Source: Nocardia sp. BMG51109 (GTDB lineage Bacteria; Actinomycetota; Actinomycetes; Mycobacteriales; Mycobacteriaceae). Taken from it: DNA of 64,000 nt. The position numbers and the translations under genes were made by a program. The notes beneath the pieces were generated by a model. It was not told where the DNA came from, did not search any database, and saw nothing but the letters and a program-made list of their open reading frames with translations. Where the stretch lies: assembly GCF_000526215.1 (NCBI RefSeq), contig NZ_JAFQ01000004.1, forward strand, positions 2,852,001 to 2,916,000, given 5' to 3'. Shown one piece after another: positions 1,471 to 11,297 of this stretch. Position 1 is the stretch's first letter. The number at the start of each line of letters is the position of its first letter.

Positions 1471-1600
1471 GCAAATTTCGCAGGATTAGCAAATGGTCCG
1501 CGACGCCTAGCACGGATTCACAATAACAACAGGTAGACGGCACTTTTTCGGTGTGCCATCGTGTGGATGTACACCCGATGGGCCTAGCAAGCCTGCAAAT
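1471..1600 (+). promoter_or_regulatory. Possible RamB-type sites upstream of aceA
   Basis: GCAAAT occurs three times before aceA (1471-1476, 1489-1494, 1595-1600). RamB, which controls isocitrate lyase genes in corynebacteria and mycobacteria, binds TTTGCAAA-like elements, so these are candidate half-sites. The motif is short and in a relatively AT-rich stretch, so chance occurrence is possible. Confidence 0.3.
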
Positions 1601-1677
1601 TGCCGCTCCAGCAGAGTTCGGACATCGCGACGGATTCCGGACATGGGGCACGACCGAACGAAGAAGTGGAGTCAGAG

Positions 1678-2964
1678 ATGTCGACTGTCGGCACCCCGAA
1701 GACCGCTGCGGAAATCCAGCAGGACTGGGACACCAACCCGCGCTGGAAAGGCGTCTCCCGGAACTACACCGCGGAGCAGGTGGCCAAGCTGCAAGGCACC
1801 GTTGTCGAGGAGAACACGCTCGCCCGCCGTGGCGCGGAAATCCTCTGGGAGGGTGTCAACGGCGGCGAGTACATCAACGCGCTGGGCGCGCTGACCGGCA
1901 ACATGGCCGTGCAGCAGGTGCGCGCCGGCCTCAAGGCCATCTACCTGTCGGGCTGGCAGGTCGCCGGTGACGCGAACCTGTCCGGCCACACCTACCCCGA
2001 CCAGAGCCTCTACCCGGCCAACTCGGTGCCGGCCGTGGTGCGCCGCATCAACAACGCGCTGCTGCGCGCCGACGAGATCTCCCGCGTCGAGGGCGACACC
2101 TCCGTCGACAACTGGCTGGTGCCGATCGTCGCCGACGGCGAGGCCGGCTTCGGCGGCGCGCTGAACGTCTACGAGCTGCAGAAGGCCATGATCACCGCGG
2201 GCGCCGCCGGCACCCACTGGGAGGACCAGCTGGCCTCGGAGAAGAAGTGCGGCCACCTGGGCGGCAAGGTGCTCATCCCCACCCAGCAGCACATCCGCAC
2301 GCTGAACTCCGCGCGCCTGGCCTCCGACGTGGCCGGCACCCCCACCGTGGTCATCGCCCGCACCGACGCCGAGGCCGCCACCCTGATCACCTCCGACGTG
2401 GACGAGCGCGACCGCCCGTTCATCACCGGTGACCGCACCGCAGAGGGCTTCTACCAGGTCAAGAACGGCATCGAGCCCTGCATCGCCCGGGCCAAGGCCT
2501 ACGCCCCGTACGCCGATCTGATCTGGATGGAGACCGGCACCCCCGACCTGGAACTGGCGCGCAAGTTCGCCGAGTCGGTGAAGAGCGAGTTCCCGGACCA
2601 GCTGCTGGCCTACAACTGCTCGCCGTCGTTCAACTGGCGCAAGCACCTGGACGACGCCACGATCGCGAAGTTCCAGAAGGAGCTGGGCGCGATGGGCTTC
2701 AAGTTCCAGTTCATCACCCTGGCCGGCTTCCACGCGCTCAACTACTCGATGTTCGACCTGGCCTACGGCTACGCCCGCGAGGGCATGACCGCCTACGTCG
2801 ACCTGCAGGAGCGCGAGTTCGCGGCCGAGGAGCGCGGCTACACCGCCACCAAGCACCAGCGCGAGGTGGGCGCCGGCTACTTCGACGCGATCGCCACCAC
2901 CGTCGATCCCGACAGCTCGACCACCGCGCTGAAGGGTTCGACCGAAGAAGGTCAGTTCCACTGA
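1678..2964 (+). CDS. aceA: Isocitrate lyase (Icl1 type)
   Basis: Cleaves isocitrate to succinate and glyoxylate, the first step of the glyoxylate shunt, needed for growth on fatty acids and acetate. The protein has 428 residues, the length recalled for M. tuberculosis Icl1. The catalytic loop KKCGH is at 189-193, placing the active-site cysteine at Cys191 as in Icl1. The start MSTVGTPKT at 1678 is supported by a GGAG site and matches the usual N-terminus; an in-frame start at 1600 is rejected. Two strong hairpins follow, so it is probably transcribed alone. It is followed by fadB2 as in M. tuberculosis (Rv0467-Rv0468), tying it to fatty-acid use. Confidence 0.97.
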
Positions 2965-3195: not shown

Positions 3196-4071
3196 GTGAG
3201 CACCGAGAAGATTCAACGCGTCGGAGTGATCGGCGCCGGACAGATGGGCGCCGGAATCGCGGAGGTGTGCGCCCGGGCGCATGTCGATGTGCTCGTGTTC
3301 GAACAGACCCGGGAACTGGCCGCCGCGGGCCGCGCCCGGATCCTGCGCTCGCTCGATCGCGGCGTGTCCAGCGGCAAGATCACCGAGCGGGAGCGTGAGC
3401 AGGCCGCGTGGCGGCTGCGCTTCACCTCGGACCTGGGCGATTTCGCCGACCGCCAGCTGGTCGCCGAGGCCGTCGTGGAGAACGAGGAGGTGAAGACCTC
3501 GATCTTCGCCGAGCTGGACAAGGTCGTGACCGATCCGGCCGCCGTGCTCGCCTCGAACACCTCCTCGATCCCGATCATGAAGATCGCGATGGCCACCGCC
3601 AACCCCGATCGCGTGGTGGGCATGCACTTCTTCAATCCGGTGCCGGTGCTGCCGCTGGTGGAGCTGGTGACGACGCTGAAGACCAGCGACGCGGTGTCCA
3701 AGCGCGCCGAGAACTTCGCCGCCGACGTGCTGGGCAAGCAGGTCGTGCGCTCGGCCGACCGCTCCGGTTTCGTGGTGAACGCGCTGCTGGTGCCGTATCT
3801 GCTCTCGGCGATCCGGATGGTCGAATCGGGCTTCGCGACCAAGGACGACGTCGACAAGGCGATGGTGCTCGGCTGCGCGCACCCGATGGGCCCGCTGGCG
3901 CTGACCGACCTGGTCGGCCTGGACACCGTGAAGTCGATCGCCGACTCCATGTACGACGAGTTCAAGGAGCCGCTGTACTCGGCGCCGCCGCTGTTGATGC
4001 GCATGGTCGAGGCCGGGCTGCTCGGCAAGAAGACCGGCGCCGGCTTCTACCAGTACAACAACAACCGCTGA
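3196..4071 (+). CDS. fadB2: 3-hydroxybutyryl-CoA dehydrogenase
   Basis: Oxidises or reduces 3-hydroxyacyl-CoA with NAD(P) in short-chain fatty-acid turnover. The 291-residue protein has an N-terminal Rossmann fold with GAGQMGAGIAE (about residues 10-20) and the HFFNP catalytic-His motif (GMHFFNPVP). The C-terminal half forms the usual helical dimer domain, with a late GKKTGAGFY motif. The GTG start at 3196 has AGGAG about 7 nt upstream. It sits next to aceA exactly as Rv0468 sits next to Rv0467 in M. tuberculosis, which supports the fadB2 name. Confidence 0.93.
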   Translation: MSTEKIQRVGVIGAGQMGAGIAEVCARAHVDVLVFEQTRELAAAGRARILRSLDRGVSSGKITEREREQAAWRLRFTSDLGDFADRQLVAEAVVENEEVKTSIFAELDKVVTDPAAVLASNTSSIPIMKIAMATANPDRVVGMHFFNPVPVLPLVELVTTLKTSDAVSKRAENFAADVLGKQVVRSADRSGFVVNALLVPYLLSAIRMVESGFATKDDVDKAMVLGCAHPMGPLALTDLVGLDTVKSIADSMYDEFKEPLYSAPPLLMRMVEAGLLGKKTGAGFYQYNNNR

Positions 4072-4203: not shown

Positions 4204-6510
4204 ATGGTCAACGTCACCGAGGGTTTCGGATCGAGCATTCTCGGCTATCCGAGAATCGGACCGCACCGGGAGCTCAAACGCGCGCTGGAGTCGTACTGGC
4301 GCGGTTCGCTCTCGCGCGACGAGTTGCTGTCCGTGGGCCGGGAGATCCAGGAGACCCAGTTCGCCGAGCTGCACGCGGCCGGGCTCACCCAGGTGCCCGG
4401 CAACACCTTCTCCTTCTACGACCACATCCTCGACAACGCGCTGCTGTTCGGCGCGGTGCCGAAGCGGTTCGAGGGGTACCGAGAAGGCTTGCACCCCTTG
4501 GACTTCTACTTCCTGATGGCGCGCGGCCGGCCGGACCTGCCGCCGCTGGAGCTGGTGCGCCTGTTCGGCACCAACTACCACTACCGCCAGCCGGAGCTGG
4601 ATGCCGACACCGAGTTCTCGCTGCATCCCGAGGCCCTGCTCGACGAGTGGGACCGGGCCATGGCCGCCGGGATCGAGCAGCGGCCGGTGGTGCTCGGGCC
4701 GGTGTCGCTGCTGTTGCTGTCCAAGGCCGGGCAGGTGCCCGGCGAGGCCGAGTTCGACAGGCTGGCCCTGCTGGACCGGCTGCTTCCGGTGTACGAGGAG
4801 CTGCTCGAGATCCTCGCCAAGCGCGGGTCGACCTGCGTGCAGCTGGACGAGCCGTGCTTCACCAGCGAGCGCACGCCGGCCGAGCTGGCGGCGTTCGAGC
4901 GGGCCTACCAGCGCCTGTCGACCGCTCCGCTGCGTCCGCGCATCCTGGTCACCGGCCAGTACGGCGATTTCGGTGAGGCCGTGCGGATCCTGGCCGGGAC
5001 GGCCGTGGAGGCGATCGGGCTGGATCTGGCCAGCTTCCGGATGCGCCCGGAGGAGCTGGCGAAGATCCCCGGGATCCGGCGCAAGCGGCTGTACGCGGGC
5101 GTGATCAGCGGCACCAACGTGTGGCGCGCCGACCGCTACGTGACGCTGCAGTACCTCGAGGAGCTGGCCCGGGTCTGCCCGGATCTGGTGGTGTCCACCG
5201 GGACGACGCTGCTGCACGTGCCCTACGACGTGCTCGTCGAATACGATATCGACGGCAATGTCGCCGACCGCCTGGCCTTCGCGAAACAGAAGGTCCTCGA
5301 GGTGGTTTCGCTCGCGAAGGCGCTGACCGAGGGGCCGTCGGACAACTGGCGCAAGCGGCCCGGCGAGGTGCACTTCAAGCAGAAACACGCTGTGCGGCAA
5401 CGGGTTTACGCCGTGACGCCGCAGATGCGCGAGCGCGAGCCGTACGAGGTGCGCTGGGAAGCTCAGCGCGCCGCGCTGAACCTGCCGACGGTGCCGGCCA
5501 CCACGCTGGGCTCGTTCCCGCAGACCGCGGCGGTCCGTCAGGCCCGCTACGAGCTCGGCGCGGGGCGGCTGTCCTACGAGGAATACCGCAAGCGGATCGA
5601 GGCCGAGATCGAGTCGACCATCCGGTTGCAGGAGGACATCGGCCTGGACGTGCTGGTGCACGGCGAGCACGAGCGCAACGACATGATCCAGTACTTCGCC
5701 GAACTGCTGGACGGCTTCGCCACCACGCATTTCGGCTGGGTGCAGGTGTACGGGTCGCGGTGCGTGCGGCCGCCGGTCCTGTACGGCGATGTCGCGCGGC
5801 CGAAGCCGATGTCGGTGGAGTGGATCACCTACGCCCAGTCGCTGACCGACAAACCGGTGAAAGGCATTGTCACCGGCCCGGTCACGATGGTGGCACGCTC
5901 GTTCGTGCGGCAGGACCAGCCGCTGTACGAGACCGCCGACCAGGTGGCGCTGGCGATCCGCGACGAGCTGGCGGATCTGGAGAAGGCCGGGGTGCCGATC
6001 ATTCAGGTCGACGAACCGGCGGTGCGTGAGCTGCTGCCGCTGCGCCCCAGCGGGCGTCCCGAATACCTGCGCTGGGCGGTGAACGCGTTCCGGCTGGCCA
6101 CCTCGGGCGTTCGGCCGGAGACCCAGATCCACACGCATATCGGCTATTCCGGCCGGGCCGAGATCGTGCGGGCGATCGAGGAGCTGGATGCCGACGTCAC
6201 CGCGATCGTCGCCACCCGGTCCATCGAATGGGTGCTCAAGGCGTTGCGGGAGGACGTGGGGGAGGGCCACGGGCTCTCGCACGGCGTGGGTCCGGGTGTG
6301 TACGAGAGTCGTTCGGCGCGCATCCCCGACATCGACGAGCTGGACGAATCGCTCACCGCGGCGGCCGAGGCGGTCACCCCGGAGCGGCTGTGGGCGAATC
6401 CCGACGGCGGCTTGAAGACTCGGCACTCCTGGCAGCTGGAACCGTCGCTGCGCAATCTGGTCGCGGCCGCGCGACGGGTGCGGCGGCGGGCGGAGCAGGG
6501 CCCGCGGTAA
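4204..6510 (+). CDS. MetE-like protein lacking zinc ligands
   Basis: A 768-residue, full-length relative of cobalamin-independent methionine synthase. Both MetE halves are present: the N-terminal LGYPRIG start, and C-terminal motifs TLGSFPQT, RNDMIQYF, GWVQVYGSRC and QVDEPAVRE that line the homocysteine and folate sites. The zinc site is broken. In E. coli MetE the ligands are His641, Cys643, Glu665 and Cys726. Here His645 is kept, but the other positions are Gly647, Val669 and Gly735 (NPDGGLKT instead of NPDCGLKT). Normal homocysteine activation by zinc is therefore unlikely. It may be a repurposed methyltransferase or an inactive paralogue. ATG at 4204 has GGAGAAGGAG 10 nt upstream. It sits where mycolate cyclopropane synthases lie in M. 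tuberculosis. Confidence 0.85.
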   Translation: MVNVTEGFGSSILGYPRIGPHRELKRALESYWRGSLSRDELLSVGREIQETQFAELHAAGLTQVPGNTFSFYDHILDNALLFGAVPKRFEGYREGLHPLDFYFLMARGRPDLPPLELVRLFGTNYHYRQPELDADTEFSLHPEALLDEWDRAMAAGIEQRPVVLGPVSLLLLSKAGQVPGEAEFDRLALLDRLLPVYEELLEILAKRGSTCVQLDEPCFTSERTPAELAAFERAYQRLSTAPLRPRILVTGQYGDFGEAVRILAGTAVEAIGLDLASFRMRPEELAKIPGIRRKRLYAGVISGTNVWRADRYVTLQYLEELARVCPDLVVSTGTTLLHVPYDVLVEYDIDGNVADRLAFAKQKVLEVVSLAKALTEGPSDNWRKRPGEVHFKQKHAVRQRVYAVTPQMREREPYEVRWEAQRAALNLPTVPATTLGSFPQTAAVRQARYELGAGRLSYEEYRKRIEAEIESTIRLQEDIGLDVLVHGEHERNDMIQYFAELLDGFATTHFGWVQVYGSRCVRPPVLYGDVARPKPMSVEWITYAQSLTDKPVKGIVTGPVTMVARSFVRQDQPLYETADQVALAIRDELADLEKAGVPIIQVDEPAVRELLPLRPSGRPEYLRWAVNAFRLATSGVRPETQIHTHIGYSGRAEIVRAIEELDADVTAIVATRSIEWVLKALREDVGEGHGLSHGVGPGVYESRSARIPDIDELDESLTAAAEAVTPERLWANPDGGLKTRHSWQLEPSLRNLVAAARRVRRRAEQGPR

Positions 6511-8621: not shown

Positions 8622-9144
8622 TCTTAGAATTCCCTCCACTTGTCTGCCCCGGATGGGCGACCGGAAAAGACCTTAGGGGAGATGGATTGCGTTGTCGCGC
8701 AGGGGGTTCGTCTACGCTGCGTGTCTCGGCGATAGCTGGCTATTATCTGTGTTGCGGGCGATGCCCGGACCGGACGGCTGTTGATCACGCGAAAATGCCC
8801 TTGAATCCTGTTGCGCCTCAAATTTGCTGTGCGCCCGGTAGCGCAATCTGAATCAAGCTGCCCACATCGGCGCGTCGACCGGGAAATTCCGTGCTCAGAC
8901 GCGTGTAGGGCAGATCGGCATGTCTGTGTTCAAAGTCACAGTAACGTACGCCCGGTCCGGGCTCGGCGAATCACGGACCATGGGTGACCACTGCGGCTCG
9001 GCACACCGGCGGCGTCCACGGAGAACTCATCTGCGATGCAGGGTAATTCGACCTGATGAGGTCGGATTCGACAGCCGCGGCCATGTTTTCGGTTGACAGT
9101 GGCGGCCTCGCCGGTCGGTGTCACGGCTCCCGTGGATACTCGGA
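8622..9144. other. Long non-coding stretch with no clear gene
   Basis: No protein-like reading frame with a start signal was found here. The stretch is less GC-rich than the neighbouring genes and runs into the broken DUF397 remnant at 9145-9325, so it may be decayed DNA. It must also hold the promoter of the secreted protein gene ending at 7998. Confidence 0.5.
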
Positions 9145-10553: not shown

Positions 10554-11297
10554 ATGCTGAACGTCGTGGCGATTCTGCTTTCGCTGGTCTCTCTGTTGTC
10601 GACACTGCTGGGCGGGCTGGTGGCGGTCCGCATCGGCGAACGCAAGCGTGTCGTGCTCGGCCTGGCCGCCGGCGTCATGCTCGGCGTGGTCGCCTTCGAT
10701 CTGCTGCCCGACGCGCTCGCGGAATCGGCGTACACCGTCGTCGGGGTGCCCGGCGCGCTGGTCGCGGCCGTCGTCGGGTTCTTCACCGTTCACATCATCG
10801 AGCAGGCCACCGCCATCCACGTCGGCCACGAGGGCGAATTCGGCAGTCACACACACGATTTCCAGTCCGTCGGCGTCCTCGCCGCGTGCGGGCTGATCTT
10901 CCACAGCATGCTCGACGGCCTGAGTATCGGCGTCGGCTTCCAAACCGGTGCGGCACTGGGGATCTCGGTGGCGATCGCGGTGATCTGCCACGACTTCGCC
11001 GACGGTTTCAACGCCTTCACCATCCCGACCCTGTACGGCAACGCGCACCGCCGCGCACTGGTGCTGCTGTGGCTCGATGCGCTCGCGCCCGTGGTCGGCG
11101 CGGTGATCGGCACGGTCGTTCACATACCGGCCGACCTGGCCGGGCTGTATCTGGGATATTTCGCGGGCTTCCTGCTGTACCTGGCGACCGGGGACATCCT
11201 GCCCGAGGCGCATGCCGGTCGGCCGTCGCGGCTGGTGCTGCTGTGCACGATCGCGGGAGCCCTGCTGATGTTCGCCGTCGCGGCCCTGAACTACTGA
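10554..11297 (+). CDS. ZIP-family metal transporter
   Basis: A 247-residue membrane protein of the ZIP family, expected to import zinc, iron or similar divalent metals. About eight hydrophobic segments are visible. The metal path residues appear in IFHSMLDGLSIGVGF and CHDFADGFNAFTIP, and a His-bearing loop (HVGHEGEF GSHTHDF) precedes the first of these. No clear ribosome binding site precedes the ATG at 10554, so the start could be leaderless or slightly different. The 3' end is repeated in tandem after the stop codon (11291-11404). Confidence 0.87.
   Translation: MLNVVAILLSLVSLLSTLLGGLVAVRIGERKRVVLGLAAGVMLGVVAFDLLPDALAESAYTVVGVPGALVAAVVGFFTVHIIEQATAIHVGHEGEFGSHTHDFQSVGVLAACGLIFHSMLDGLSIGVGFQTGAALGISVAIAVICHDFADGFNAFTIPTLYGNAHRRALVLLWLDALAPVVGAVIGTVVHIPADLAGLYLGYFAGFLLYLATGDILPEAHAGRPSRLVLLCTIAGALLMFAVAALNY

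Follow-up and report, generated by a model that had tools for sequence, protein, structure and literature searches.

Introduction

The window (the whole stretch of 64,000 nucleotides of Nocardia sp. BMG51109 that was analyzed) encodes a full-length relative of methionine synthase MetE (EC 2.1.1.14) in which three of the four zinc ligands are replaced. What does a MetE scaffold do without its zinc site? Neither a zinc-less full-length MetE nor its place beside an isocitrate lyase gene was found in a search of titles and the beginnings of abstracts in the open-licence literature. There is reportedly a 2002 paper on the isocitrate lyase of R. equi, cited in PMC2947987, that may describe the icl-fadB region.

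The MetE Fold Is Kept and the Zinc Site Is Replaced

The features of the gene are as follows (all on the + strand; residue counts refer to the 285 distinct zinc-less sequences defined below, and roles marked with a source are those given in PMC539065).

4204..6510, +: metE-like, zinc-less MetE paralogue, 768 aa, open for 768 codons
4231..5175, +: N-terminal barrel, PF08267, residues 10-324, Pfam match over the domain length
5494..6474, +: C-terminal catalytic barrel, PF01717, residues 431-757, Pfam match over the domain length
5512..5514, +: Ser437, homocysteine carboxylate site (PMC539065), S in 285/285
5665..5667, +: Glu488, homocysteine amino-group site (PMC539065), E in 285/285
6010..6012, +: Asp603, homocysteine amino-group site (PMC539065), D in 285/285
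6028..6030, +: Glu609, pterin-binding Glu, E 276, T 8, D 1 of 285
6136..6138 (CAT), +: His645 (E. coli His641), the sole zinc ligand kept, H in 285/285
6142..6144 (GGC), +: Gly647, replaces zinc ligand Cys643; G 144, T 55, A 47, P 17, S 13, N 6, E 2, Q 1, no Cys
6208..6210 (GTC), +: Val669, replaces zinc ligand Glu665; V 278, I 7 of 285
6310..6312 (CGT), +: Arg703, replaces the His of the DIHSP motif (E. coli 694), YDIHSP having become YESRSA; R 284, H 1 of 285
6406..6408 (GGC), +: Gly735, replaces zinc ligand Cys726; G 284, F 1 of 285

As the original prediction stated, the protein is a full-length MetE relative: the two-barrel MetE fold is present with both Pfam domains (PF08267 and PF01717), and the chain aligned colinearly with 1u1h, the MetE of Arabidopsis, and with three MetE chains from fungi. 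The ligand columns of this alignment fall on His645, Gly647, Val669 and Gly735. Folds were compared with VIA-align over the top chains returned by Foldseek. The translated E. coli b3829 carries H, C, E and C at residues 641, 643, 665 and 726, in agreement with the earlier numbering, which had set His641, Cys643, Glu665 and Cys726 against the same four positions. With 35 close sequences as input, AlphaFold2 gave a poor model (pLDDT 66.9), and a second model was used instead. A domain scan of the protein returned the two MetE domains alone and no added regulatory domain. Of the equivalog profiles, NF003556 scored 927.8 bits (cut-off 541) and TIGR01371 853.2 bits (cut-off 929.95).

Residue roles were transferred by motif from the assignments for Thermotoga maritima MetE. 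The loss of the DIHSP His had not been predicted, nor had the isocitrate lyase and fadB2 neighbours described below. This His (T. maritima 672) is listed as one of three possible proton donors of MetE (PMC539065); the other two candidates (T. maritima Asp467 and His111) are kept as Asp493 (285/285) and His126 (249/285).

The Changes Are Shared by a Whole Clade

An alignment of 401 rows was analyzed, from which 17 were dropped as partial or for a stop in the alignment (none of them breaks the ligand pattern). Among the remaining 384 there were 313 distinct sequences, of which 285 are zinc-less and 28 are canonical. The zinc-less set comprises sequences with >58% identity to the window protein; its most distant member has 60.3% identity and the nearest canonical sequence 55.3%. 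When residues 30-740 only were compared, the distinct zinc-less sequences numbered 283 instead of 285.

The three ligands (two Cys and the Glu) were absent from 285/285 distinct full-length clade sequences, compared with 0/28 canonical MetEs of the same set. All four ligands and the DIHSP His were intact in 28/28 canonical sequences and in 120/120 nearest canonical relatives, which are the best matches to L050, a sequence from a close canonical branch of the first tree. The GGC codons at both Cys positions and the undisturbed frame had been taken to mean that decay by frameshift is not the cause; the sharing of the changes by 285/285 members speaks against decay in this strain. The homologues with the same three changes, whose collection had been proposed as a check, form one clade with conserved neighbours (icl and fadB2).

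The homocysteine residues S437, E488, M494 and D603 were each found in 285/285 sequences, as were the folate residues W512, R519, R522 and R22; K25 was found in 284/285. The earlier claim that both sets of motifs are retained therefore holds, the homocysteine residues being invariant and the folate residues nearly so. The Lys104-equivalent is R in 246, K in 35 and another residue in 4 of the 285. With the pterin Glu changed in 9/285 and Arg at the Lys104-equivalent in most members, the binding of folate may be altered. The zinc-less and canonical groups have different fixed residues at 25 positions, and ten of them lie in the former metal and DIHSP stretches (669, 671, 676, 701-703, 705, 735, 744 and 745).

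Two quick IQ-TREE trees (67 and 59 rows, with SH-aLRT support only) placed the clade on one side of a branch with SH-aLRT 100, its stem measuring 0.74-0.79 changes per column. The zinc-less set stands apart from the canonical MetEs of its own family and is placed among MetEs of another family of the order; its exact attachment point was poorly resolved. The dN/dS ratio of metE-like was 0.012-0.165 in 9/9 pairs (proteins 84-99.6% identical), as under purifying selection, and within the range of icl (0-0.173) and fadB2 (0-0.236) in the same pairs. From these sequences we infer that a rapid change of function, followed by constraint, may be the evolutionary pattern of the clade.

Distribution of the Zinc-Less Gene

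The gene is present in 148/148 genomes of the genus, although the match is partial in one genome whose assembly is fragmented (G015). The genus is the grouping of the tool; the best 120 matches are nearly all Nocardia by name, with one Streptomyces gardneri. The family was surveyed with a 96-residue C-terminal query in 401 genomes, 72 of which gave no match, and the matches split cleanly into those with a best E <1e-33 and those >1e-26. By hand count among the matches listed, the clade was seen in 24 of the 31 sampled genera; the genera without a low-E member among those matches are g2, g5, g6, g88, g93, g99 and g104. Lolliginicoccus, Hoyosella, Nocardia, Rhodococcus, Williamsia, Aldersonia and Skermania are the named genera among the best 80 of 564 confirmed stretches.

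Outside the family, the same changes were not seen among 396 sampled genomes of the phylum with the C-terminal query, which could miss a rare outsider. Only three Nocardia reached E 1e-47 in this sample, the other matches being 1e-25 or weaker, and five of the weaker loci (L198-L202), when read, had all four ligands.

In a genome of genus g4, a remnant of zinc-less metE (the C-terminal part, 55 to 64 aligned codons depending on the query) lies directly after icl-fadB2 (L221, ~8782-8973, minus strand). This is a lineage-specific loss, and it indicates that loss of zinc-less metE does happen.

The Gene Follows icl and fadB2

Two genes precede metE-like in the window:

1600..2964, +: icl/aceA, isocitrate lyase, NF011645 778.2 bits (cut-off 562), start codon uncertain
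3196..4071, +: fadB2, 3-hydroxybutyryl-CoA dehydrogenase, NF005875 528.9 bits (cut-off 319)

The gaps are 231 nt (icl-fadB2) and 132 nt (fadB2-metE-like). The order icl, fadB2, metE-like on one strand was found in 95/95 loci with enough flank, out of a sample of 100 (the window, 80 named loci and 19 further ones); in the remaining five the contig stops too early, although fadB2 can still be seen in L072. Several loci share a species or show a gene twice (L218/L066, L220/L130), so the 95 cases are not independent; the 19 further loci alone span 13 of the tool's genera. The distance from fadB2 to the nearest metE start codon ranges from 5 to 566 nt, and is <=100 nt in 27/95. Synteny counts were obtained by tblastn, and neighbour maps with a crude GC-frame gene caller.

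When 21 family genomes without an intact gene were picked, icl was found at E 1e-60 or better in 18; the three without such an icl come from g88, g93 and g99. In 15 of 17 regions from genomes without an intact gene fadB2 still follows icl, the exceptions being two g6 genomes. A gene of the mycolic acid methyltransferase family lies directly after fadB2 in two of three loci of genus g2 (NF040660 466.6 and 437.3 bits; cut-off 390), a genus that we take to be Mycobacterium. The earlier hint of a mycolic acid methyltransferase locus is thus right by position; the constant link is with icl and fadB2. More generally, the slot after fadB2 in family genomes without the gene may hold SAM-dependent methyltransferase-like genes (of mycolic type in L224 and L226, unclassified in L227).

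Nothing useful was found in papers on co-expression of icl and metE-like; the main text of a Dietzia alkane paper gives icl and makes no mention of metE. A passage of an N. cyriacigeorgica paper places metE and isocitrate lyase on one plastic region, which is consistent with the linkage and not informative. Just downstream of metE-like, the window encodes a 60-aa MT0933-like antitoxin family protein (PF14013, 6580-6762), and ~4 kb downstream a ZIP family zinc transporter (10554-11297); nothing was seen in the window that ties the transporter to metE-like.

Canonical Methionine Synthases and Their Regulation

A search for a second, canonical metE had been proposed, and one was found in the window's genome at G000:C4:8425845-8428133, 50% identical, with all four ligands and a cobalamin riboswitch. 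The genome also encodes MetH. A cobalamin riboswitch was detected at 23 of 24 hand-chosen canonical metE loci (L157 is the one without) and at none of 25 hand-chosen zinc-less loci, which represent 24 genes as L126 and L141 are the same gene. The zinc-less loci were scanned mostly over 1.5 kb upstream, which reaches fadB2 and not the front of icl, and over ~8 kb for L131, L061, L126 and L096. Between 2500 and 7000 of the window there were only matches below the gathering score, none from a riboswitch family. Two further riboswitches were seen near canonical metE genes: a second cobalamin riboswitch on the opposite strand beside the first (L050, 4324-4541) and a SAM riboswitch (L189, 1248-1342, minus strand).

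MetH was found in 36/36 genome entries examined (35 over the cut-off), 34 of which had been picked for no canonical MetE being seen, and some genomes were entered twice. On these counts the divergent copy was rejected as the only methionine synthase of the cell, genome G536 aside. There, metH is split over two frames (G536:C1:1747257-1750774; a frameshift or an assembly error), and no canonical MetE was found.

A zinc-sparing paralogue under Zur control with a COG0523 partner, an idea prompted by PMC2770081, was also considered and found no support: no Zur-like palindrome was found by eye in the 132-nt gap. No COG0523-like protein was present among the 8 and 9 window proteins covered by two scans.

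Rereading of the Rhodococcus qingshengii IGTS8 Proteome

A protein named MetE (IGTS8_peg5907) is reported among the ten most abundant sulfur-proteome proteins of R. qingshengii IGTS8 on dibenzothiophene, 190- to 273-fold above sulfate cultures, and is given 2 cysteines and 7 methionines (PMC8557817). The counts for R. erythropolis NBRC 15567 are 2 Cys and 8 Met, the initial Met included, in the zinc-less protein, and 4 Cys and 7 Met in the aligned portion of the canonical protein. In this strain 37 kb separate the zinc-less gene from mshA on one contig, and the canonical metE is on a different contig; in IGTS8, mshA is peg5948, 41 numbers from peg5907 (PMC8557817). The IGTS8 medium contained cyanocobalamin (PMC8557817), so that a riboswitch-controlled canonical metE should stay low. 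By Cys count, mshA position and B12 in the medium, IGTS8_peg5907 is most likely the zinc-less protein, and the MetE-driven methionine synthesis described during biodesulfurization (PMC8557817) probably concerns this protein.

The published reading is a sulfur-starvation response to a poor sulfur source, many sulfur-scavenging proteins being up too (PMC8557817). Dibenzothiophene was added from a 100 mM ethanol stock to 0.5 mM, and no mention was found of ethanol being added to the sulfate cultures (PMC8557817). The ethanol in the dibenzothiophene cultures works out at ~0.5% v/v, roughly 85 mM. Given the position of the gene beside icl, ethanol could account for the induction just as well as a shortage of sulfur, and may be an alternative cause of the rise of peg5907. 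The words isocitrate lyase and glyoxylate are absent from the main text of that paper.

What the Protein May Do

These data suggest that (i) metE-like is almost certainly no MetE-type zinc methionine synthase; (ii) its role very probably belongs to C2/lipid metabolism; and (iii) the odds that it works as an enzyme on folate, and not as a binding protein, are about even. In two listings of the best 120 matches, clade proteins are named, wherever the source names them, methionine synthase (5-methyltetrahydropteroyltriglutamate-homocysteine methyltransferase). With the zinc site absent this label is probably wrong for the clade, and metabolic models that grant B12-independent methionine synthesis from a zinc-less gene may be wrong as well.

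The explanation that we consider best, and to which we would give slightly short of an even chance, is an old neofunctionalised MetE paralogue acting as a putative zinc-free folate/amino-acid enzyme of C2/fatty-acid metabolism. The protein would be produced along with isocitrate lyase when cells grow on C2 compounds or fatty acids, would bind a (polyglutamyl) folate and an alpha-amino acid, and would carry out a zinc-free one-carbon reaction between the two. The former metal pocket, with His645 retained and Arg703 beside it as placed by motif, would suit an anionic group and not a zinc-bound thiolate. Because three anionic ligands are lost and an arginine is gained, the pocket should suit an acidic side chain or anionic group, and an acidic amino acid or a glyoxylate-derived compound would be candidate partners. 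Against this explanation stand the gene gaps of 231 and 132 nt in the window, the changes at the pterin Glu and the Lys104-equivalent, and the published reading of the IGTS8 induction as a response to sulfur starvation. With Asp493 and His126 retained as candidate proton donors, MetE folate chemistry may not be lost; this leaves the standing of the best explanation unmoved, since the arguments for it come from the zinc site, the locus and the regulation.

With the metal ligands gone, the binding residues kept and the gene beside icl in 95/95 loci, the protein could instead be a non-catalytic sensor of 5-methyl-THF and homocysteine/methionine, or a partner of isocitrate lyase or another enzyme, tying one-carbon status to the glyoxylate shunt. 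We consider this unlikely, as the former metal stretches are newly fixed (R703, E701, W676), as in a working site, and not drifting, and no regulatory domain was found beside the two MetE domains. The original prediction had left the choice between another methyl transfer and a non-catalytic role; its view of a protein retired from MetE-type zinc chemistry stands, and the data favour neither of its two options. A metal-free methionine synthase isozyme, in which Arg703 and His645 hold the homocysteine thiolate and which escapes S-thiolation of the zinc cysteines during lipid oxidation, is decidedly unlikely: homocysteine is activated by zinc in both MetE and MetH (PMC539065, PMC7857596), no B12 riboswitch was detected at 25 loci, and MetH in 36/36 entries indicates that the examined cells do not depend on the zinc-less protein. 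What speaks for such an isozyme is that the clade retains every homocysteine residue, almost every folate residue and two of the three possible proton donors, that S-mycothiolation occurs at the active-site zinc centre of MetE in Corynebacterium glutamicum (PMC4360819), and that methyl-folate is reported to rise in the same early log phase in which the IGTS8 protein reaches its top level (PMC8557817).

A different metal site nearby, formed for example by His645, Glu701 and His741, would draw on a His741 that is new (274/285), on Glu701 (285/285) and on the Glu at position 647 in 2/285 sequences. Further D, E or H residues are newly conserved in the clade as well. Such a site is very improbable, as His741 varies within the clade (Y 7, R 3, Q 1) and the only newly invariant Cys, Cys211, is placed by the model in a strand of the N-terminal barrel. 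Recent decay in the window strain, for which the L221 remnant after icl-fadB2 offers a parallel, has a negligible probability; a strain-specific pseudogene is ruled out by changes common to 285/285 clade members, presence in 148/148 genomes of the genus and dN/dS well below 1.

Carried further, the zinc-free enzyme of C2/fatty-acid metabolism would represent an enzyme type of its own and a novel one: a one-carbon transferase that is built on the MetE scaffold, depends on folate, works without metal and takes an anionic alpha-amino acid as substrate, serving C2/lipid growth through the isocitrate-lyase cluster in most genera of the family and apparently not in Mycobacterium or Corynebacterium. 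We offer this fuller proposal tentatively, as possible and short of probable. The question that it poses is which folate chemistry accompanies isocitrate lyase in lipid-eating actinobacteria.

Comparison with Known Systems

Like MetE (EC 2.1.1.14), metE-like has two face-to-face barrels at full length, the residues for the homocysteine amino and carboxyl groups and most folate residues, with 42% identity to 1u1h by structural alignment. Unlike MetE, it is without three zinc ligands and the DIHSP His, scores under the TIGR01371 cut-off (and over that of NF003556), had no B12 riboswitch found and lies in an icl cluster. The core methionine synthases MesA-MesD present the reverse case: they have no N-terminal, folate-related portion and in most cases retain the zinc ligands (PMC7857596), whereas metE-like has both barrels. 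In the MesB-like proteins of Chloroflexales the zinc residues are described as not conserved (PMC7857596), which makes them the nearest precedent seen for a zinc-less relative in the sources at hand.

The N-terminal barrel of MetE itself is also a MetE-type barrel in which the zinc site was lost after duplication (PMC539065); many homocysteine residues were lost there too, whereas they are invariant in the metE-like clade. Barrels of the uroporphyrinogen decarboxylase and MtaA type showed 11-17% identity, over the C-terminal half only. R. erythropolis (L163) and Rhodococcus sp. SMB37 (L164) each encode a third, single-barrel MetE relative with 29% identity over residues ~426-652, perhaps MesD-like.
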